A stretch of 60,675 nucleotides of DNA. Source: Actinospica acidithermotolerans. Its GTDB lineage: Bacteria; Actinomycetota; Actinomycetes; Streptomycetales; Catenulisporaceae. The DNA lies in assembly GCF_018139625.1 (NCBI RefSeq), contig NZ_JAGSOH010000031.1:1-60675 (forward strand). Reading direction: 5' to 3'. How positions within the stretch are numbered: position 1 is the stretch's first letter; the number at the start of each line of letters is the position of its first letter. The notes beneath the pieces were generated by a model that did not search any database, had not been told where the DNA came from, and saw only the letters and a program-made list of their open reading frames with translations. Shown here one piece after another: positions 5,775-22,694 of the stretch. A program made the translations under genes and the position numbers.

Positions 5775-6182
5775 GGTGGAGGTGCCGGGAATCGAACCCG
5801 GGTCCATCGGCGGCTCTGCAGGGCTTCTACGGGCGTATTCCCGAACGCTTTTCTCGGCTCCGGCGATCCCCGGGACGGGTCACCGACAAGCCCAGCCACG
5901 TAAGTTCCCTCACTCACCCGTGGCCTGTTCGTGAGGTTTTGCCCCCTAGATGATGCCGCGGCCAGGTCGGGGGCGATCCTGGAGCGACAAAGGAACTGCG
6001 GTGAAACCTTACTGCTGGACTAGCGAGAAGCTAGATCAGGCAGCGAGGGCCATCGTGTTCCGGGCAACCGTCTTCTGGTTGGCATTTGTTTTTTTGCCGT
6101 GTTTCGTGGTTAACGAGATCATCACGGCTTCCTCGGCCCGCTTCCCCTGCGTCGACGTCCAATGTCGAAACCGTTCACCCCC
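5775..6182 (-). ncRNA. ssrA: Transfer-messenger RNA (tmRNA, SsrA)
   Basis: The 5' end GGGGGTG (complement of 6176-6182) pairs with CACCTCC near the 3' end, forming the alanyl-tRNA-like acceptor stem. The T-arm GGGTTCGATTCCCG is present (complement of about 5787-5802), and GGTTTCGAC follows the 5' end as in other tmRNAs. After the discriminator A the DNA reads CCG, so the final A of CCA must be added post-transcriptionally. The tag reading frame opens at GGC (6098-6096), encodes 20 residues beginning GKKTNANQ and ending NTMALAA, and stops at TGA (6038-6036). The ALAA end is the classical degron. SmpB, its obligate partner, is encoded just upstream on the same strand. Confidence 0.95.
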
Positions 6183-9271: not shown

Positions 9272-10369
9272 TTAGCGCTGCCGCCGCCAGCGGATCGCGG
9301 CCTCGATGAATCCGTCGATCTCGCCGTCCAGCACGGCCGAGGTGTTGCCGGTCTCGAACTCCGTGCGCAGGTCCTTGACCATCTGGTACGGGTGCAGCAC
9401 GTAGGAGCGCATCTGGTTGCCCCAGGAGCCGCCGGAGTCGCCCTTGAGCGCGTCCATCTTGGCCTGCTCCTCCTGCCGCTTCACGTCGAGCAGCTTGGCC
9501 TGCAGGACCGCCATGGCCGAGGCCTTGTTCTGCAGCTGAGAGCGCTCGTTCTGGCAGGAGACCACGATGCCGGTCGGGATGTGCGTCAGGCGCACCGCCG
9601 AGTCGGTGGTGTTCACGCCCTGGCCGCCGGGGCCCGAGGAGCGGTAGACGTCCACCCGCAGCTCGTCCTCGGGGATGTCGATGTGGTCGGTCTGCTCGAC
9701 GACCGGGAGCACCTCCACGCCCGCGAACGAGGTCTGCCGGCGGCCCTGGTTGTCGAAGGGCGAGATGCGCACCAGGCGGTGGGTGCCCTGCTCGACGGAG
9801 AGCGTGCCGTACGCGTACGGCGCCTTGACCTGGAAGGTCGCGGACTTGATGCCCGCCTCCTCCGCGTACGAGGTGTCGTAGACCTCGGTCGGGTAGCCGT
9901 GCCGCTCGCAGTAGCGCAGGTACATCCGCAGCAGCATCTCGGCGAAGTCCGCCGCGTCCACGCCGCCCGCCTCCGAGCGGATGGTGACCAGCGCCTCGCG
10001 GGAGTCGTACTCGCCGTTGAGCAGCGTGCGCACCTCCATCTCGGAGACCGCCTTGGTCACGCCGGGCAGCTCGTCGGCCGCCTCGTTCACGGTGTCCGCG
10101 TCGTCCTCCGCGAGGCCGAGCTCGTAGAGGGTCTCGAGGTCGTCGAGGCGCCGGCGCAGGCCCTCCACCCGGGACAGCTCGCCCTGGAGGTTGGACAGCC
10201 GGCTCGTCACCTGCTGCGCCTTGGCCTGGTCGTCCCACAGGTCCGGCGCCGCGGCCTCCTCGTTCAGCCGCTTGATCTCCGCGCGCAGCGCGTCGAGGTC
10301 CACGACGGCCTCGATCGACGCCATGGTGGACTTGAGGTTTTTGAGGTCTTCAGCAAGGTCTACCGACAC
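9272..10369 (-). CDS. prfB: Peptide chain release factor 2 (RF2)
   Basis: The 365-residue RF2 starts at GTG 10369 ([12 protein letters not shown]). The stop-codon recognition tripeptide SPF occurs in [11 protein letters not shown] and the catalytic GGQ in [18 protein letters not shown]2 reads UGA and UAA and triggers peptidyl-tRNA hydrolysis. The reading frame is continuous: the UGA-dependent +1 frameshift found in many bacterial prfB genes is absent, as is usual in actinobacteria. The C-terminus [15 protein letters not shown] is normal, but its DNA is duplicated twice downstream. It lies 55 bp downstream of a Ser/Thr kinase gene on the same strand. Confidence 0.97.
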
Positions 10370-10424: not shown

Positions 10425-12506
<2,082 letters not shown>

Positions 12507-12573: not shown

Positions 12574-14028
<1,455 letters not shown>

Positions 14029-14364
14029 GTGAAACCCTTTCCTCCCCGGCCTCGCGGCGTACGGTGGTGCAAGCGGTGCGGTGGTGGCGGTGGTGCGCCT
14101 GTGGTGGTGTCGCGGTGGTGCCAGGCCAGCGTAGTGCGAGCGGGGAACTCCCCGGCGTCTGGGATGGCGGTTTGTACCCCAATCGCTACCTTAATTCCAC
14201 CCGGTAATCCGGCGGAAGGGCTTCCGGGGCGCGGCGCGCGGCACGGCGGATCCGGGGCGCCCGAAGATCGCGTCCCGGTTGGCGAGCCGGGACTGTCAGA
14301 AGTCTCGGCTAACGTATCTTTGGTAGCTCTCCCCGTCCCGCCGCTCCAAGGACCGCGTACTCCC
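14029..14364. other. Divergent intergenic region, kinase / FHA-FtsK
   Basis: A 336-bp non-coding stretch with both genes' promoters presumably inside. The most A/T-rich piece, near 14185-14205 (ctaccttaattccaccc), and taacgtatctttgg near 14310-14325 are possible -10 areas for opposite directions; neither has a convincing -35. The open frame running through it on the plus strand lacks family similarity and I do not include it in the downstream gene. Confidence 0.5.
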
Positions 14365-17313
14365 ATGCAGCTGCGACTGTCCGTCAGTGTGCCGACCGGG
14401 CCAGCCCGTGCCCCGGGCCGGGCCACGGCCGGCGGCGCGAACCCGAACTCCCTGCTGGACGTGCTGGTCACGGCCCCGGCGGGGACGCCGCTGCGCGCGG
14501 CGGCCGGGCAGCTGGCGAACCTCGCGGGGCTGGCCGAGCCGGTCTTCCACGTGGGCGCCCGGCGGCTCGCGGACGACCATCCGCTCGGCGTGCCCCCGCT
14601 CGTGGACGGCGCGGTTCTGACGGCGGATCAGCCGGACGCGGCGCTGCCCCCGCCCGGGAATCTGGAGCTGCACGTGATCGGCGGCCCGGACGCCGGCGGG
14701 GTGCACCTGCTGACGCCGCCCCCGCCGGGCCTGGCCGCGCTGCGGCTGACGATCGGCCGCGGCGCCGAGGCGGACATCCGGATCGAGGACCCTGACCTGT
14801 CCCGGCGGCACGCGGTGCTGACGGTGAGCACCGACTGGGTGCGCCTGGCGGACTGCGGCTCGACCAACGGCACGGTGCTCGGCGGCAGCCGCATCGGCGA
14901 GGAGCCGGTGCTGCTCGCGCCGCAGACCCCGGTGCGGCTCGGCGAGACGACGCTGCTGCTGCGGCACGGCGAGGAGTCCCTGGAGGTGGACCCGGACCGG
15001 CTCGGCAGGGTGCTGGTACGCGTCGTGCCGCGCAGCAACCCGGCCGTGCCGGCCCCCCGCTTCGAGCTGCCGACGCCCCCCGGCGCGCGCGGCCTGCCCG
15101 CCGCAAGGCGCCGCATGCAGGCGGCCTTCGAGCAGGCGAAGGCGGCCACCGAGGCGAAGATCTCCGCGGCCCTCGCGGTCGAGTCGGGCCTGCGCCGTAC
15201 CCGGCACCCGGACCCGGCCGCGCTGCTGACCACGGCGCTGCGCCCCGGGCTCGGCCTGTGGAGCCGCGGCCGGGACCAGCCCGAACTGCTGGAGCTGCGG
15301 CTCGGCACGGCGCGGCTGCCCTCCTCCGTGACGGTCACCCAGGGCCCGCGCAGCTTCCGCCCGCGCGTCCCGGCCGCGCCGGTCACCGTGGACCTGTCCG
15401 GGGTCGGCGTGCTCGGCCTGGTGGCGGCGGAGGGCCCCGAGGGCGGCGAGGATCTCGAGCTGCCGCCCTACGACCTGCTCGGCAGCGAGCACACCGGCGC
15501 CGGGACCTCGGGCTCGTACTCGGTGCGCGCCCTGGCCCGCAGCCTCGTCGCCCAGCTCGCCGCCCTCTGCTCCCCCCTGGACGTCGACCTGGTCGTGCTG
15601 TGCACCAACGGCGCCGAACGCTGGCGCTGGACGACCTGGCTGCCGCACTGCGCCCCGCAGGACGGTCAGAACTGCCGCGCGATGGTCGCCTTCGACGCGG
15701 GCCAGCTGGCCGCCCGGCTGGCCGAGCTGACGGTCCGTCTGGAGGCCCGCCAGGGCGCGCTGCGCGGCAGCGACGAGCCGTGGCCGGGGCGCCGTACCGT
15801 GCTCGTGCTGGACCGCGGGGAGTCGGCCGCGAAGGCGCCGTACCCGCCGGAGCTGCTGCGCCTGCTGGCCGAGGGCCCGCGCGTCGGCATGCACGCCATC
15901 GTCGTGGCCGACCGCCGCGAGGAGCTGCCCGAGGGCGTCGCCGCGATCGCCGCCGTCGGCGGGGAGGTGCACACCCGGCTGCGGCTGGAGCAGCCCGGGA
16001 AGCTGACCATGGAGGGCATACTCGCCGATCTGACGTCGCCCCAGTGGGCCATCAGATTCGCGCACGCCCTCGCCCCGCTGCGGGACTCGCGCGAGGGCGG
16101 CGTCCAGGGCATACACGGCACGAACCAGCGCCAGCTGCCCGAGGAGGCCAGGCTGCTGCCGCTGCTGGAGCTGGACCTGCTCACCCCGACGAAGCTCTCG
16201 GCGCGGTGGGCGGCGGTCAGGGAGTCGGCGGCCCGAGAACAGGCGGCACGGGAACAGGCGGTTCGAGAACAGCCGCGGACGGCACGGCGGAGCATCGGCG
16301 GGTACGAACAGGCGGCAGCGGCAGGCGGCGCGGGATTGCCGGTCGTGTTGGGCGCGGACAGCCACGGGGCGGTACGGGCGGAACTGACGGGGCACCACAT
16401 CCTGGTCGGCGGAGCGTCGGGCTCCGGCATCTCCGAGGCGCTGCGCTCCATCCTGTGCTCCGCCGCGCTCCCGACCCCGCCCGAGCGGCTGCGCGTGCTG
16501 CTCGTCTCCGGCGGCAACGGCGCGTCCTGGGGCGAGACCACCCGCCTTCCGCACGTGGCCCTGCACGCCGCGGACGCGACGAACGAGGCCGAGCTTCGCC
16601 ACCTGCTCGCCACGGCGCGCGAGTTCTACGAGGAGCGCGGCGCACGCGAAGTGCGCGGGGTACGGGGAACGAGCGAGGTGCACGGCGCGCGCGGGACGGG
16701 CGATGCGCGCGGGAACGGGGACGTGCGCTCCGTGCTCGGGGCGCTCGAGCCGGACCGGCCCTCCGAAAGGCTGCTGCTCGGCGTCGACGGACTCGATCGG
16801 ATCGCCGTGCGCCACCCCTGGTTCGTGAAGGAGCTGACGGAGCTGGCCCAGGAGGGGCGCCCGCACGGCGTCCATCTGCTGCTCGGCATCACCCTCGACG
16901 ACGGCCCCGCGCGCCGGCTGCTCGACGGCGAGCTCTGCGAGGAGCTCGACCTGCGCCTGGCGCTGCGGACCTACGGCCCCGAGGAATCCAGAAGGCTGAT
17001 CTCGCTGCCGGACGCGGCGGCCATCCGCCCCAGCCTGCCCGGCCGCGGCTGGCTGGCCCTGCCCGACGGCAGGGTCCTGCCGGTCCAGGTTCCCCGCGTC
17101 AGCGGCCGTATGGCCTCCAGCGCCACCGCCCGCGCCCACGTGGCCGTCGACGACTGGCGCCGCCTCGGCGACCAACTGCCCAACCGCGCCCTGGGCGGCA
17201 CCGGCGCGCTCCCCCTGCAGCCCGGCACCCCGACGGACCTCGCGCTCCTCGTCGAGAGCGCGACCCGGGCGGCGATGGCGCCGAGTCGAACGGCGGCGGC
17301 CAGCAGCCGGTAG
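14365..17313 (+). CDS. FHA-domain, FtsK/SpoIIIE-like (EssC/EccC-type) protein with degenerate P-loop
   Basis: ATG 14365 gives 982 residues. An FHA phosphothreonine-binding domain lies at about 120-190 (TIGRGAEADI, DLSRRHAVL, CGSTNGT), containing the conserved Gly-Arg, Ser-x-x-His and Asn-Gly elements. After a linker come two FtsK/EssC-like ATPase modules: the first (about 330-590) has no P-loop, and the second has HHILVGGASGSGISEAL around residue 689, where the Walker A Lys is Ile. The Walker B-like segment LLLGVDGLDRI (about 800) lacks the usual DE pair. AREQ (about 617-635) and REVRGVRG-type (about 755-785) low-complexity repeats interrupt it. In type VII secretion EssC couples ATP hydrolysis to export, but no WXG100 genes are seen here. 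Divergent kinases suggest regulation by phosphorylation. Confidence 0.85.
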   Translation: MQLRLSVSVPTGPARAPGRATAGGANPNSLLDVLVTAPAGTPLRAAAGQLANLAGLAEPVFHVGARRLADDHPLGVPPLVDGAVLTADQPDAALPPPGNLELHVIGGPDAGGVHLLTPPPPGLAALRLTIGRGAEADIRIEDPDLSRRHAVLTVSTDWVRLADCGSTNGTVLGGSRIGEEPVLLAPQTPVRLGETTLLLRHGEESLEVDPDRLGRVLVRVVPRSNPAVPAPRFELPTPPGARGLPAARRRMQAAFEQAKAATEAKISAALAVESGLRRTRHPDPAALLTTALRPGLGLWSRGRDQPELLELRLGTARLPSSVTVTQGPRSFRPRVPAAPVTVDLSGVGVLGLVAAEGPEGGEDLELPPYDLLGSEHTGAGTSGSYSVRALARSLVAQLAALCSPLDVDLVVLCTNGAERWRWTTWLPHCAPQDGQNCRAMVAFDAGQLAARLAELTVRLEARQGALRGSDEPWPGRRTVLVLDRGESAAKAPYPPELLRLLAEGPRVGMHAIVVADRREELPEGVAAIAAVGGEVHTRLRLEQPGKLTMEGILADLTSPQWAIRFAHALAPLRDSREGGVQGIHGTNQRQLPEEARLLPLLELDLLTPTKLSARWAAVRESAAREQAAREQAVREQPRTARRSIGGYEQAAAAGGAGLPVVLGADSHGAVRAELTGHHILVGGASGSGISEALRSILCSAALPTPPERLRVLLVSGGNGASWGETTRLPHVALHAADATNEAELRHLLATAREFYEERGAREVRGVRGTSEVHGARGTGDARGNGDVRSVLGALEPDRPSERLLLGVDGLDRIAVRHPWFVKELTELAQEGRPHGVHLLLGITLDDGPARRLLDGELCEELDLRLALRTYGPEESRRLISLPDAAAIRPSLPGRGWLALPDGRVLPVQVPRVSGRMASSATARAHVAVDDWRRLGDQLPNRALGGTGALPLQPGTPTDLALLVESATRAAMAPSRTAAASSR

Positions 17314-17582: not shown

Positions 17583-20500
17583 CTACATCGCGTTCGCGCG
17601 CAGCAGGGTCCTGATCGTGCGCAGGGCCACCGAGAGGATCGCCAGGTCGAACGAGTCGGCCGAGGAGATCTCGGTGAGCACGGCCCTTGCGCGCTCGACG
17701 GCGGCCTGGTTCTTGTTGACCCAGACGGAGAAGCGGACGTCGGGGTCGGTCTCGCCGGGGGCGGCGGCCAGGACGTCGAAGGTCAGCGCGGCCTGGGCGG
17801 CGTAGAGCTCCTCCCGGACGGCGGCGCGGGCCATGGTCTCCCAGCGGTCGGTGCGCGGGAGGGCGGTGATGCGGTCGCGCAGGGCTCCGATGCCGAGGCG
17901 GTCGACGAGGTCGAAGTAGCCCTCGGCGACCTCGCCGGGGCCGCGGCCGGTCTCCTTGGCGACCTCGACGATGTCCAGCGCGGAATACGCCGAGCCGGCC
18001 ACCGCGACGCGGGCGGCGAGCTCCTCCGGGACGCCGTACTCGACGAGTTCGGCGGTGGCGGAGGCCAGTTGCTGGGCGTCGGTGCCCTTGAGCAGCTTGG
18101 GCAGCTGGGCGCAGACCTCCGTGACGCCCGCGGAGAAGGCCTCGACCTGCTCGGTGATGTCGATCGGGTGCTTGCGATTGAGCAGGAACCAGCGGGCGCC
18201 GCGCTCGGTCAGCCGGCGGCCGGCCAGCCGCATGCGGGTCTGGATCTCGGCCGGGACCCTGTTGTCCAGCTCGTCGATCGCCTTCCAGAAGCTGTCCAGG
18301 CCGAAGACCTCGCGGGCCACGGTGTGCGCCCGGGAGATCTCCTCCGCGCTCGCGCCCGTCTCCTCGCGCATCCGGAACAGGAAGCTGATGCCCGCGTTGT
18401 TCACCAGGTTGTTCACCACCTGGGTGGCGATGATCTCCCGGCGCAGCGGGTGGGCGGCGATCAGGTCGTGCAGCCGCTCGCGGACGGCGCTGGGGAAGTA
18501 GCGGAACAGGTCCGCCTCGAGGTACTGGTCGTCCAGGAGCTCGCTGGCCAGCAGCTCCTCGTTCAGCACGATCTTGGTGTAGGCCAGCAGCACGGCGAGC
18601 TCGGGCTGCGTCAGCCCCTGGCCCGCGGAGCGGCGCTCCTGGATGACCCGGTCCCGGGGCAGGAACTCGAGGTCCCGGTTCAGGTGGCCGTCCGAGGTGA
18701 GCTGGCGCATGTAGCGCGCGTGGACGTGCAGCAGCGCGGGCGCCTGGGCCACGGCCGAGGCGAGCGCGACGTTCTGGCCGTAGTTGTCGGCCAGGACGAG
18801 GTCGGCGATCTCGTCGGTCATCGAGGCGAGCAGCGGGGTGCGCTCCTCGGCCTCGAGCACGCCGGACTTCACCGCCTGGTCGACCAGGATCTTGATGTTG
18901 ACCTCGTGGTCGGAGGTGTCCACGCCCGCGGAGTTGTCGATGGCGTCGGTGTTGATCCGGCCGCCCTCGCCCGACGGGCCGCCCTGCAGCGCGTACTCGA
19001 TGCGGCCCAGCTGCGTGCAGCCGAGGTTGCCGCCCTCGCCGACGACCTTGACCCGCAGCTGGGAGCCGTTGACCCGGATCGCGTCGTTGGCCTTGTCGCC
19101 GACGTCGGCGTGCGACTCGCCGGCCGACTTCACGTACGTGCCGATGCCGCCGTTCCACAGCAGGTCGACCGGCGCCTGCAGGATCGCCTTCATCAGCTCG
19201 GCCGGCGTCGTGCGGGTCACGCCCTCGGGCAGCCCGAGCGCGCGGCGCACCTGCGGGGTGACCGGGATCGACTTGGCGCTGCGCGGGAAGACGCCGCCGC
19301 CGTCGGAGATCAGCTTCGTGTCGTAGTCGGCCCAGCTGGAGCGCGGCAGGTCGAACAGCCGCCGGCGCTCGGCGTACGAGGCGGCCGGGTCCGGGTCCGG
19401 GTCGATGAAGATGTGCCGGTGGTCGAACGCGGCGATCAGCTTCGCGTGCTCCGAGCGCAGCAGGCCGTTGCCGAAGACGTCCCCGGACATGTCGCCGATG
19501 CCGACGACGGTGAACTCCTGCGTCTGGGTGTCGACGCCGAGCTCGCGGAAGTGGCGCTTGACCGACTCCCACGCGCCGCGCGAGGTGATGCCCATCGCCT
19601 TGTGGTCGTAGCCGACCGAGCCGCCGGAGGCGAACGCGTCGCCGAGCCAGAAGTTGTACTCGGCGGAGACCGCGTTGGCGATGTCCGAGAACGTCGCGGT
19701 GCCCTTGTCGGCGGCGACGACGAGGTAGTGGTCGTCGCCGTCGTAGCGCACGACGTTCTTCGGCGGCACGATGACGCCGTCGACCAGGTTGTCGGTGATG
19801 TCCAGCAGGCCCCTGATGAACATCTGGTAGCACGCGATGCCCTCGGCCATGAAGGCCTCGCGGTTGGACGGGTCCACCGGGTTCTTGACCACGAAGCCGC
19901 CCTTCGCGCCGACCGGCACGATGACGACGTTCTTGACCATCTGCGCCTTGGCCAGGCCGAGGATCTCGGTGCGGAAGTCCTCGCGCCGGTCCGACCAGCG
20001 CAGTCCGCCGCGCGCGACCTTGCCGAAGCGCAGGTGCACGCCCTCGACCCGGGGCGAGTAGACCCAGATCTCGAACCTGGGCCTGGGCATCGGCAGGTCC
20101 TGCACGGCCGGAGCGTTGATCTTGAAGGAGATGTACGGCTTGGGGGAGCCGTCCTCGGCGGGCTGGTAGAGGTTCGTGCGCAGCGTCGCCCGGATCACGC
20201 CGAGCAGCGAGCGCAGGATGCGGTCCTCGTCCAGCGAGGCGACGGTGTCGAGCGCTCCCTCGATCTCCTCGACCATGCCGTCGATCAGCTCGTGGCCGGC
20301 GTCGGCGTGCGCGGGGTCGAAGGAGGCCTCGAACAGCCGGACCAGCAGCCGGACGATCCGGGTGTTGGCGCCGAGCACCTTCTCGACCAGGCCCTGGCTG
20401 AAGGTCATGCCGCCCTGCCGCAGGTACTTGACGTACGCGCGCAGGATCGAGGCCTGGCGCCAGCTCAGGCCGGAGCCGAGGACCAGGGTGTTGAAGCCGT

Positions 20501-22490
20501 CGTTCTCCGCCATCCCGGACCACACGGCGCCGAACGCCGCGGTGAACCGGTCCCGCGCGCCCACGTCGAGCAGCGACTCGGGGTCGCTCACCCGCAGGCC
20601 GAAGTCCAGGATCCAGGCGCTGTCGCCGCCGGCCCGGAGCAGCTCGTACGGCTGCTCCTCGAGGACCTCGACGCCGAAGCGCTGCAGGATCGGCAGCACC
20701 TCGGCCAGCGTGATCATCCGGCCGACGCGGAAGATCTTGAGCCGGTACTCGTCCGGGCTCGATCCCGCCCTGCGGTAGACGGCGAGCGAGGAGTCGGTGG
20801 TGTCGTCGGCGTGGATGGCCTCGATCCTGGCCAGGTCCTGCGCGGCGCGCTCCGGCGCGAAGTCCGCCTTGTAGCCCTCCGGGAAGGCGTTCTTGAACTC
20901 GGCGATCAGGCTGGCGGCGCGGTCCTCGCCGAGCTGCTCCTCGAGCAGGTCCTCGAGCGCGTCGTTCCAGCTGCGCAGCGCGCGGGCGAGCTTGCGCTCG
21001 ATCTGCTCGGCGTCCACCTCCGGCAGCCGCTCGCCGTTCGCCATCCGGATGACGAAGTGCAGCCGGGTGAGCACCGACTCGGTGGAGCGCACCGTGTAGT
21101 CGATGGCCTTGCCGTGCAGATCCCTGAGCAGGATCTCCTGCAGCTTGAGCCGGTTCGCCGTGTCGTAGAGGTCGCGCGGGACGTAGACCAGCGCGGAGAA
21201 GTAGCGCCCGTAGACGTCCTTGCGCAGGAACAGCCGCACCCGGCGCCGCTCCTGCAGGTGCTGCACCGCGCCGGAGATCTCGGCGAGCTCGCCCACCGGG
21301 ATCTGGAACAGCTCGTCGCGCGGGTAGGACTCGAGGATCTGCAGCAGGTCCTTGCCGGAGTGCGAGTTGAGCGTGTATCCGTGCACGTCGAGGACCTGAC
21401 GGACCTTCTGCCTGACGACCGGGATGTGCTGCACGGACTCGGAGTACGCGGCGGCGGAGAACAGGCCGAGGATGCGGCGCTCGCCGACGACCTCGCCGGC
21501 GGCGTTGAAGACCTTCACGCCGATGTAGTCGAGGTAGCCGGGGCGGTGCACCGTGGCGCGCGAGTTGGCCTTGGTGAGCACCAGCAGCCGCGGTTCGCGG
21601 GCCTTGGTGCGCACCTCCGGCGGCAGCTTGGAGAAGGTGCTCGGCGCGTTCTGCGGCTGGTCGGAGCGCAGGATGCCGAGACCGGTGCCCGGCACGGCGC
21701 GCAGCCGGTCGTCGCCGTCCTCGGTGATCAGCTCGTACTCGCGGTAGCCGAGGAAGGTGAAGTGGCCGTCCACCAGCCAGCGCAGCAGCTCCTGGCCGGC
21801 CGAGAGCTCCTCGAAGTCGAGGCCCGCGGCCTGCGCGGCCTCGCCCTGCGCGCCGTCGAGCGCCTCGGCCGCGGCGAGGGTGGCGTTCTTCATCTTCGGC
21901 CAGTCCTCGACGGCCTCGCGCACGTCCCGCAGCACGCGGCGCAGGTCGGCCTCGAGGGCGGCGATCCGGGCCGGGTCGTCGGCCTGCCGGTCGATCTCGA
22001 TGTGCATCCAGGACTCGACGCTGGCGCCCTCGGGGGCGGACTCCGGGTCGACGTCGTACACCTGGCGCAGGTCGCCGGCGACGTCGCGGTCCACCGCGAG
22101 CACCGGGTGCACGACGAGGTGGATGCCCTGCCCGCTGCGGGTGAGCTCGGCGGTGACCGAGTCGACGAGGAAGGGCATGTCGTCCGTGACGATCTCGACG
22201 ACGCTGCGGCGGTTGCGGCCGGTGCCCCAGCCGTCCTCGGCCGCCGGGGTCAGGACCCTGATCTTGGCGGTGCCCTGCGGGCGGTGGGCGGCGAGCTCGA
22301 GGCTGGAGGCGGCGGCGCCGTACAGGTCGGCGGGTCCGCGGTCGGCGAGGTCGTCGAGGGCGACGTGCCGGTAGTAGCGGTTGATCACCGCCTCGCCGAC
22401 CGTCGCGCCCGCATCCTGCCCGCCGGATCCGGCCAGGGCGGCCGCCTCCCCGAGCAGCGCGTTCTTAGCCGAGTCCAGTTGCGTCACCAT
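17583..22490 (-). CDS. gdh: Large NAD-dependent glutamate dehydrogenase (GDH-180 class)
   Basis: I choose ATG 22490 (MVTQLDSAKNALLGEA), preceded by GGAG nine bases upstream, giving 1635 residues; upstream in-frame starts are possible. This length and the long N-terminal ACT-like region followed by the catalytic core are typical of the Streptomyces/Pseudomonas ~180-kDa enzyme. The core shows RGGLRWSDRREDFRTE, KGGFVVKNPVDP, VGIGDMSGDVFGNG, LWNGGIGTYVK and GEGGNLGCTQ. It oxidises glutamate to 2-oxoglutarate plus ammonia with NAD+, feeding carbon from amino acids into the TCA cycle, and the family is allosterically controlled. It is monocistronic, between convergent FHA-FtsK and a separately spaced upstream gene. 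Confidence 0.96.
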   Translation of the reverse strand: MVTQLDSAKNALLGEAAALAGSGGQDAGATVGEAVINRYYRHVALDDLADRGPADLYGAAASSLELAAHRPQGTAKIRVLTPAAEDGWGTGRNRRSVVEIVTDDMPFLVDSVTAELTRSGQGIHLVVHPVLAVDRDVAGDLRQVYDVDPESAPEGASVESWMHIEIDRQADDPARIAALEADLRRVLRDVREAVEDWPKMKNATLAAAEALDGAQGEAAQAAGLDFEELSAGQELLRWLVDGHFTFLGYREYELITEDGDDRLRAVPGTGLGILRSDQPQNAPSTFSKLPPEVRTKAREPRLLVLTKANSRATVHRPGYLDYIGVKVFNAAGEVVGERRILGLFSAAAYSESVQHIPVVRQKVRQVLDVHGYTLNSHSGKDLLQILESYPRDELFQIPVGELAEISGAVQHLQERRRVRLFLRKDVYGRYFSALVYVPRDLYDTANRLKLQEILLRDLHGKAIDYTVRSTESVLTRLHFVIRMANGERLPEVDAEQIERKLARALRSWNDALEDLLEEQLGEDRAASLIAEFKNAFPEGYKADFAPERAAQDLARIEAIHADDTTDSSLAVYRRAGSSPDEYRLKIFRVGRMITLAEVLPILQRFGVEVLEEQPYELLRAGGDSAWILDFGLRVSDPESLLDVGARDRFTAAFGAVWSGMAENDGFNTLVLGSGLSWRQASILRAYVKYLRQGGMTFSQGLVEKVLGANTRIVRLLVRLFEASFDPAHADAGHELIDGMVEEIEGALDTVASLDEDRILRSLLGVIRATLRTNLYQPAEDGSPKPYISFKINAPAVQDLPMPRPRFEIWVYSPRVEGVHLRFGKVARGGLRWSDRREDFRTEILGLAKAQMVKNVVIVPVGAKGGFVVKNPVDPSNREAFMAEGIACYQMFIRGLLDITDNLVDGVIVPPKNVVRYDGDDHYLVVAADKGTATFSDIANAVSAEYNFWLGDAFASGGSVGYDHKAMGITSRGAWESVKRHFRELGVDTQTQEFTVVGIGDMSGDVFGNGLLRSEHAKLIAAFDHRHIFIDPDPDPAASYAERRRLFDLPRSSWADYDTKLISDGGGVFPRSAKSIPVTPQVRRALGLPEGVTRTTPAELMKAILQAPVDLLWNGGIGTYVKSAGESHADVGDKANDAIRVNGSQLRVKVVGEGGNLGCTQLGRIEYALQGGPSGEGGRINTDAIDNSAGVDTSDHEVNIKILVDQAVKSGVLEAEERTPLLASMTDEIADLVLADNYGQNVALASAVAQAPALLHVHARYMRQLTSDGHLNRDLEFLPRDRVIQERRSAGQGLTQPELAVLLAYTKIVLNEELLASELLDDQYLEADLFRYFPSAVRERLHDLIAAHPLRREIIATQVVNNLVNNAGISFLFRMREETGASAEEISRAHTVAREVFGLDSFWKAIDELDNRVPAEIQTRMRLAGRRLTERGARWFLLNRKHPIDITEQVEAFSAGVTEVCAQLPKLLKGTDAQQLASATAELVEYGVPEELAARVAVAGSAYSALDIVEVAKETGRGPGEVAEGYFDLVDRLGIGALRDRITALPRTDRWETMARAAVREELYAAQAALTFDVLAAAPGETDPDVRFSVWVNKNQAAVERARAVLTEISSADSFDLAILSVALRTIRTLLRANAM

Positions 22491-22694
22491 GAGCGCTCGC
22501 TCCATACCAGCCGTGCGCCCTTGCACGGCAACGAGTCTTAGGCCGGGGCGGTTCCCGGCCTCGGGTACGCCTGAAAGGCTACCCGGCAAAGTGGAACGCC
22601 GGGATGCGGCTGTCCGATCACGTTGTTACGTCTGAGTTGTGGATTCCTACAGTGTGGACCGAACAGGGGAACACAGGAGCGAAGATCCCCCCGG

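Follow-up and report, generated by a model that had tools for sequence, protein, structure and literature searches.

The gene and its domain order

The window analysed here was a 60,675-base stretch (contig C244, NZ_JAGSOH010000031.1) of the 7.9-Mb genome of Actinospica acidithermotolerans. The subject of this report is the gene at 14365-17313, which encodes a protein of 982 amino acids (aa) combining an FHA domain with a single FtsK/EccC-type ATPase domain and lies opposite a Ser/Thr kinase gene. The domain order, ubiquitin-like domain (Ubl) - FHA - stalk - D0 - D1, was that of the FHA-EccC motors minus the membrane pair and D2-D3. The gene and its parts were as follows.

14365..17313, + strand: putative FHA / EccC-like pseudo-motor gene, 982 aa, probable orthologue of S. 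coelicolor SCO2975
14365..14634, + strand: N-terminal ubiquitin-like domain, residues 1-90 (model of residues 1-97)
14656..14970, + strand: FHA domain, residues 98-202, phosphothreonine-site residues intact (Pfam, alignment, fold match)
15094..16089, + strand: stalk helix and EccC domain of unknown function (DUF; D0, a degenerate ATPase fold), residues 244-575 (TIGR03924, fold match)
16330..17109, + strand: single FtsK/EccC-type ATPase domain, residues 656-915 (PF01580, fold match)
16411..16434, + strand: degenerate Walker A GASGSGIS (Lys to Ile), residues 683-690 (alignments)
16771..16797, + strand: Walker B strand LLLGVDGLD, in which the first Asp remains and Gly stands in place of the catalytic Glu (alignments)

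Both Pfam domains passed their cut-offs, FHA at residues 129-193 (E 1e-14) and FtsK_SpoIIIE (PF01580) at residues 676-840 (E 2.6e-11, 43.8 bits against a cut-off of 24). An earlier sequence-only reading had called this gene product an FHA-FtsK/EssC-like protein with intact FHA motif residues and the P-loop GASGSGIS, and all of this was borne out, the P-loop being read directly in the open reading frame. The EccC-type NCBIfam profiles TIGR03924 (residues 260-619, E 3e-41, 141.8 bits) and TIGR03925 (residues 675-922, 59.9 bits) matched well below their cut-offs of 509 and 347, respectively.

Comparisons were made over 85 orthologues, comprising the window, 40 loci and 44 further loci. L027, on the same contig as L018, was excluded before all counts, and L104 (G031), which runs off its contig, does not count among the 85. 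Two families recur below: f1, the family of the window, which contains A. durhamensis (order Catenulisporales), and f2, here called the Streptomyces family, which contains L046. The phosphothreonine-site residues G, R, S, H and N of the FHA domain (GR, SxxH, N) were invariant in the 84 orthologues with a letter there; L051 (G023) was split between frames and had no FHA letters in the alignment. The FHA-to-stalk linker ranged from 70 to 641 residues over the 85 orthologues, and many of the Streptomyces family (L039-L066, L103-L146) had a long low-complexity insert at this place.

An AlphaFold2 model of the 982-aa protein reached a mean predicted local distance difference test score (pLDDT) of 76, and fold matching was run domain by domain. 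The FHA domain matched 3gqs (Z 17.9, root-mean-square deviation (rmsd) 1.4, 98 residues aligned), D0 matched the EccC5 DUF 8rin (Z 21.6, rmsd 3.7, 236 aligned) and the ATPase domain matched the FtsK motor 6t8o (Z 27.1, rmsd 3.1, 265 aligned). Profile and fold match thus both placed the ATPase domain in the FtsK/SpoIIIE/HerA superfamily fold. Residues 1-97 were modelled separately (medium-quality model, pLDDT 75), and the sole match below 0.001 was 6sgw_B (E 5.5e-4), a chain of the ESX-3 core complex that we take to be EccD. Weaker matches were to the EccD1 ubiquitin-like domain 4kv2 (E 1.2e-2) and to SUMO/ubiquitin folds.

Several parts of a type VII motor were missing. A 19-residue Kyte-Doolittle scan of the FHA-to-stalk linker gave a maximum of 1.03 over the 85 orthologues, and no transmembrane pair before the stalk was detected by it in any of them. 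Among relatives, 13 of 16 proteins showed hydrophobic segments of 1.71-2.64 before D0, with none in L067, L077 and L084 (L084 is itself an orthologue), and the relatives L087-L102 had maxima of 1.78-2.71 within residues 150-500. Residues 394-412 of D0 reached 1.82, above a membrane-helix threshold; the model assigns them to one helix and one strand within the D0 fold. D2 and D3 were not found in the window protein, which has a single FtsK match and ends 67 residues past that domain. The DUF/D0 with its stalk was present, and the motifs of an intact D1 (GxxGxGK[S/T], DE) were absent. When the window's genome alone was searched with PF06013, 11 WXG100 matches were obtained, nine of them above the cut-off and none on C244, so the WXG100 genes that had been proposed for a search elsewhere do exist in the genome, away from this contig. 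Checks for a membrane pair, an intact D1, D2-D3 and a neighbouring WXG100 gene all came out negative, and the protein was therefore not classed as a type VII motor on its sequence features.

Loss of catalytic residues, descent and selection

At the position of the Walker A Lys, the 85 orthologues carried Arg in 70 cases, Val or Ile in 12, Lys in two (L103 and L146) and a deletion in one (L038). The first Walker B Asp was kept in all 85, and the residue after it was Asp in 73, Asn in eight and Gly in four, never Glu. All 12 sampled f1 orthologues, from three genera, had Val or Ile at Walker A with Gly or Asn after the Walker B Asp, and they formed one clade (99 in the SH-like approximate likelihood-ratio test, SH-aLRT). 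The Walker B acids had been described as missing from the window protein. This applies to the second, catalytic acid, which is Gly here, and not to the first Asp. The Lys, whose absence throughout the family had been raised as a point to check, proved lost in 83/85 orthologues, mostly to Arg; with two bearers of Lys, loss in the whole family was rejected. Intact P-loops therefore do occur among homologues, the observation that was to mark a strain-specific lesion, but such a lesion was also rejected since all 12 sampled f1 orthologues have Val or Ile.

The D1 of full-length relatives looked different. In 31 of them, chosen by core profile irrespective of the Lys and then aligned, Lys was found in 31/31, DE in 30/30 (L088 ends before Walker B) and the ATQRP sensor in 29/30 (L067 reads ASQRL), indicating that the absence of Lys in this family is derived. 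D2 and D3 of the same relatives often carry Arg at Walker A. The Lys-bearing L103 and L146 join the Arg-bearing f2 clade near its root, where the branching order lacks resolution. An ancestral Lys with separate losses is the simplest reading; reversion is possible.

ATQRP was absent from all 21 orthologue rows that reach this site in the alignment. ATQ[RK]P does occur in the last 400 residues of 13/85 orthologues, at least some of these coming from an RTATQRP stretch nearer the C-terminus, and the absence of the sensor was judged from the alignment together with the lack of any Q after the GVHL strand in the orthologue list. The segment following the LRIAL strand, which reads ESxDVID in relatives, was deleted in 12 of the 14 aligned f2 rows, including that of the Lys-bearing L146. 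The exceptions were L084, which retains letters, and L103, whose row ends earlier; as this row stops before Walker B, the Walker B of L103 was read from the 85-orthologue alignment. A looser pattern also flagged L043, which lies outside the alignment of this segment.

In a tree of ATPase domains, the family grouped with D1 and not with D2/D3, with moderate support (89/63; D1 itself 99/97) and in agreement with the position of the domain directly after D0. D1 has been described as the active ATPase of EccC and D2/D3 as degenerate (PMC11154593), so it is the presumed working domain of the motor that is disarmed here. In a tree of the shared core, built by a quick method, the family was one clade (97) with L088 adjoining (86), and the full-length FHA-EccC proteins L087, L090, L092, L093 and L094 held basal positions among the remaining sequences. 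The gene for L092 lies close to prfB, those for L093 and L094 lie close to glutamate dehydrogenase, and the window gene sits between prfB plus kinases on one side and glutamate dehydrogenase on the other. The core tree and the shared neighbourhoods together point to descent in place from a full-length FHA-EccC. Fifteen of the 16 high-scoring relatives outside the order (L087-L102, part of those listed) had open frames of 1391-1779 aa, and the other, L088, was cut by a contig end.

Among named genomes there were one true orthologue, that of Actinospica durhamensis (Catenulisporales; same genus and family f1 as the window), and eight weak partial matches. No orthologue was found in G008 and G009, two of the 14 f1 genomes (90% and 81% complete), where the best matches were paralogues.

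Ratios of nonsynonymous to synonymous substitution (dN/dS) were calculated by NG86 for nine orthologue pairs. They were 0.12-0.32 for the ATPase domain in all nine pairs, 0.03-0.29 for Ubl plus FHA and 0.03-0.35 for D0. The P-loop region gave 0-0.21 in eight pairs and 0.41 in the ninth, whose dS was very low. In the three Actinospica pairs, the 48 codons surrounding the P-loop gave 0.06-0.12. The low values in the ATPase domain and at the P-loop indicate that the degenerate site is kept and not decaying. The L051 (G023) orthologue lies in two overlapping frames (624 and 970 aa), reflecting either a frameshift or a sequencing error.

Neighbouring kinases, linker motifs and the Streptomyces locus

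The surroundings of the FHA gene contained the following features.

14029..14364, no strand: 336 bp of intergenic DNA separating the divergent kinase and FHA genes, no sigmaE-like box found
12574..14028, - strand: Ser/Thr kinase, PkaA (SCO2974) orthologue with a C-terminal transmembrane helix, divergent to the FHA gene
13159..13173, - strand: TVVLP motif (Thr286) in the linker of this kinase, candidate FHA ligand (motif search)
10425..12506, - strand: further Ser/Thr kinase behind the first, orthologous to PkaB (SCO2973), with an extensive extracytoplasmic region at the C-terminus
11550..11570, - strand: STHINQM, conserved juxtamembrane motif of the PkaB-type kinase (pattern search)
9272..10369, - strand: prfB (peptide chain release factor 2), conserved next neighbour behind the kinases
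17583..22589, - strand: NAD-glutamate dehydrogenase, convergent neighbour, also found near the full-length FHA-EccC genes of L093 and L094

The two membrane kinases had been placed directly opposite the FHA gene. Both are transcribed divergently from it, but only the one at 12574-14028 is directly opposite, the other lying behind it. An adjacent divergent kinase was present in 40/40 unique loci and a divergent kinase in 45/45 further loci, indicating conserved linkage of the kinase-FHA pair. prfB followed behind the kinase or kinases in 33/40 loci; the contigs of the other seven end too early. In the window's own genome, a full-length FHA-EccC paralogue (G000:C386; L069, L164) also has a kinase gene close by, so that linkage of a kinase with an FHA motor is not unique to this locus.

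Since linkage alone is weak evidence of partnership, the kinases were searched for motifs that an FHA domain could read. The motif T-x-[VILA]-[LM]-P was counted in the linker between the kinase domain and the transmembrane helix, with expectations from shuffled linkers. A total of 226 copies was found against about 1.3 expected, in 80 of 83 PkaA-type kinases: 97 copies against 0.6 in set one (37/38 kinases) and 129 against 0.65 in set two (43/45). PkaA-type kinases of the Streptomyces family mostly had two to four copies, with one or five in a few. No TxxLP motif was found in 36 PkaB-type kinases, and two of 24 other kinases from two genomes, drawn as controls from the best 30 of 55 kinase matches, had one copy each. 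Four of the 30 control loci were the locus kinases themselves and two (L160, L166) gave no frame. The stronger part of this evidence is the repetition of the motif inside single proteins, together with the comparison against control kinases.

L018, L029 and L031, whose contigs hold a single kinase, entered neither kinase count, and the fragments L034 and L054 were excluded from the PkaB count. The uncounted L029 linker shows TVVLP, and the L018 linker breaks off with its contig. L037 was counted as a miss because a false transmembrane call shortened its linker to 30 residues; its linker shows TTAMP. In the second set, L135 was cut at a contig end and L105 was a miss. A single TTALP or TTVMP stands in the linkers of two other kinases, L158 (the window's own genome) and L161 (G096), and these kinases may be further ligands of FHA proteins.

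FHA domains have been reported to select the residue at pT+3 (PMC5549992), and in StkP, another bacterial kinase, seven threonines of the juxtamembrane domain can be phosphorylated (PMC12077195).

The PkaB-type kinase of the window has 693 aa, of which about 325 residues past the transmembrane helix (10425-11402, - strand) had no Pfam match. Other copies in the window's family include some of 703-724 aa, and Streptomyces-family copies with the helix were 416-428 aa. By pattern, 35/36 PkaB-type kinases had a juxtamembrane [DS]TH followed by Met two or three residues on, which is possibly a second phosphothreonine site. Elsewhere in the window, a tmRNA gene (5775-6182, - strand) encodes the tag ANQKTVARNTMALAA.

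The regulon of sigmaE in S. coelicolor, as tabulated in PMC6767563, lists sco2974 (pkaA) and sco2975 ('Hypothetical protein') with promoter motifs. Upstream of the FHA gene of L046, both published motifs (pkaA and sco2975) were present without mismatch, and 221 bases separate the end of the second from the start codon, which is also the figure that the table of that paper gives for it. As L046 carries both motifs, we infer with some force that SCO2975 belongs to this family and that the SCO2975-PkaA-PkaB locus of S. coelicolor is orthologous. A box GCAAC-N17-CGTC[TC] facing the kinase was found at 57 of 72 f2 loci, against 0.05 expected. The listing of pkaA and sco2975 as sigmaE targets suggests a role in the cell-envelope stress response in Streptomyces. 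A literature search, which missed most subscription papers, returned no paper on an SCO2975-type protein; the main text of one paper found, PMC6767563, names SCO2975, only as 'Hypothetical protein'.

Interpretation and comparison with known systems

We consider it fairly probable, on the sequence evidence above, that this protein is a retired type VII secretion motor turned cytosolic, a disarmed FHA adaptor that docks on the autophosphorylated linker of PkaA. The ubiquitin-like domain, FHA domain, stalk, D0 and D1 fold were kept, and the membrane pair, D2-D3, Walker B Glu and ATQRP sensor were lost, as was the Walker A Lys in 83/85. The ancestor would have been a full-length, membrane-anchored FHA-EccC motor of the type VII secretion type. 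The divergent PkaA would autophosphorylate threonines of the T-x-x-L/M-P motifs in its own juxtamembrane linker, and the FHA domain would bind these phosphothreonines with Leu or Met at pT+3; several motifs per Streptomyces-family kinase would permit multivalent docking. The D0-D1 core, in EccC part of the ring-forming portion, may then, instead of pumping, act as a platform for oligomerisation or for binding a partner, and in Streptomyces the whole would act in envelope stress. Binding, phosphorylation and loss of ATPase activity are all predictions of this reading. The pseudo-translocase that reads phosphothreonine, as the sequence-only reading had it, thus survives in its reader half, given the disarmed P-loop, the conserved FHA domain, a kinase at every locus examined and the TxxLP arrays; with no membrane pair, the translocase half does not.

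A more specific version is tentative, and we regard it as rather unlikely as a whole: a motor retired in place would have become a kinase-tethered hub, in which a ring of FHA modules could gather phosphorylated PkaA at the membrane when the envelope is stressed. In that version D1 would have been disarmed separately in at least three lineages (by Arg, by Val/Ile and by deletion) after loss of the membrane anchor and D2-D3, and the kinase would have kept or expanded its TxxLP docks.

Several observations weigh against the adaptor reading. The window kinase holds one TVVLP alone. The 24 control kinases came from two genomes and many have shorter linkers, and the shuffled expectations ignore the relatedness of the kinases. 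The TxxLP motifs might also be recognised by other FHA proteins in the cell. No sigmaE box was found in any of the 12 sampled f1 loci, nor in the 336-bp intergenic region of the window, and the link to sigmaE may therefore not hold for A. acidithermotolerans. Furthermore, L103 and L146 retain Lys, Arg, which is the rule in f2 and common in D2/D3 of relatives, might still bind nucleotide, and the grouping with D1 has moderate support.

The possible binding by Arg leads to an alternative we hold to be unlikely, in which D1 binds ATP without hydrolysis and its occupancy toggles the adaptor, with binding lost in f1. The positive charge in 72/85 orthologues (70 Arg, 2 Lys), the Walker B Asp-Asp in 73/85, the strong constraint on the P-loop region (dN/dS 0-0.21 in 8/9 pairs) and the intact fold in the model would all suit such a switch. 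However, the Val/Ile with Gly/Asn of f1 (12/12) and the L038 deletion would make it dispensable, and the EccC5 DUF of M. tuberculosis, with its degenerate Walker A, was reported not to bind ATP (PMC11154593). The same source proposes that this DUF retains the ability to hexamerise, which fits a different and decidedly improbable proposal, that the dead D0-D1 co-assembles with full-length FHA-EccC paralogues as a regulatory type VII subunit and gates them when the kinase is active. At least six proteins with an FtsK domain, their open frames 1335-1624 aa long, are encoded in the genome, as are WXG100 proteins, but identity with six same-genome paralogues is 26-30% and the window's contig is without a WXG100 gene.

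Purifying selection on the domain could also be explained by an active motor outside secretion, whose Arg or hydrophobic P-loops hydrolyse ATP by an unusual mechanism. We give this very little weight, as the Walker B Glu is absent in 85/85, ATQRP is absent in 21/21 aligned rows and the segment after the LRIAL strand is deleted in 12/14 f2 rows. A decaying relic with no function seems hardly credible. It could draw on the three kinds of P-loop loss on the tree and on the one frame-split copy (L051, G023), whereas dN/dS is well below 1 for every domain in nine pairs, the FHA residues are conserved and synteny is kept.

If the adaptor reading is true, the locus would clearly exemplify the conversion of a secretion motor into a signalling adaptor, with loss of ATPase residues repeated in separate lineages. 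The conserved and hardly studied Streptomyces trio pkaA, pkaB and sco2975 would gain testable wiring, consisting of threonines, a reader and a stress regulator, and the prediction reaches single residues, namely the Thr in TxxLP and Arg132 of the FHA domain.

Kinase-FHA pairs are known, as are type VII secretion system (T7SS) clusters with kinases and FHA-bearing motors (PMC11217815). As far as our literature searches go, a retired motor serving as adaptor beside a kinase with a docking array has not been described. The protein shares its stalk, D0/DUF and FtsK-type ATPase folds with the EccC/EssC (TsxC) motors, and its N-terminal FHA domain with T7SSb, d, e and f, kinase genes being nearby in several T7SS subtypes (PMC11217815). 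Unlike EccC/EssC, it has no membrane pair and no D2/D3, its D1 is disarmed and no WXG100 gene is near. On the core tree, its nearest neighbours outside the family are the full-length FHA-EccC proteins L092, L093 and L094 of other Actinomycetota, together with L087, L088 and L090. The first three have a similar gene neighbourhood, but they differ in having frames of 1452-1592 aa, a hydrophobic segment, and a D1 with GTTGxGKSE and DEF. Mycobacteria offer further kinase-FHA pairs, PknH-EmbR and PknB-FhaA. In PknF-Rv1747 (PMC5549992), likewise, a membrane Ser/Thr kinase works with an FHA protein. The mycobacterial partners are an ABC transporter, a transcription factor or a small adaptor, whereas here the partner would be a disarmed secretion motor facing a TxxLP-bearing kinase.

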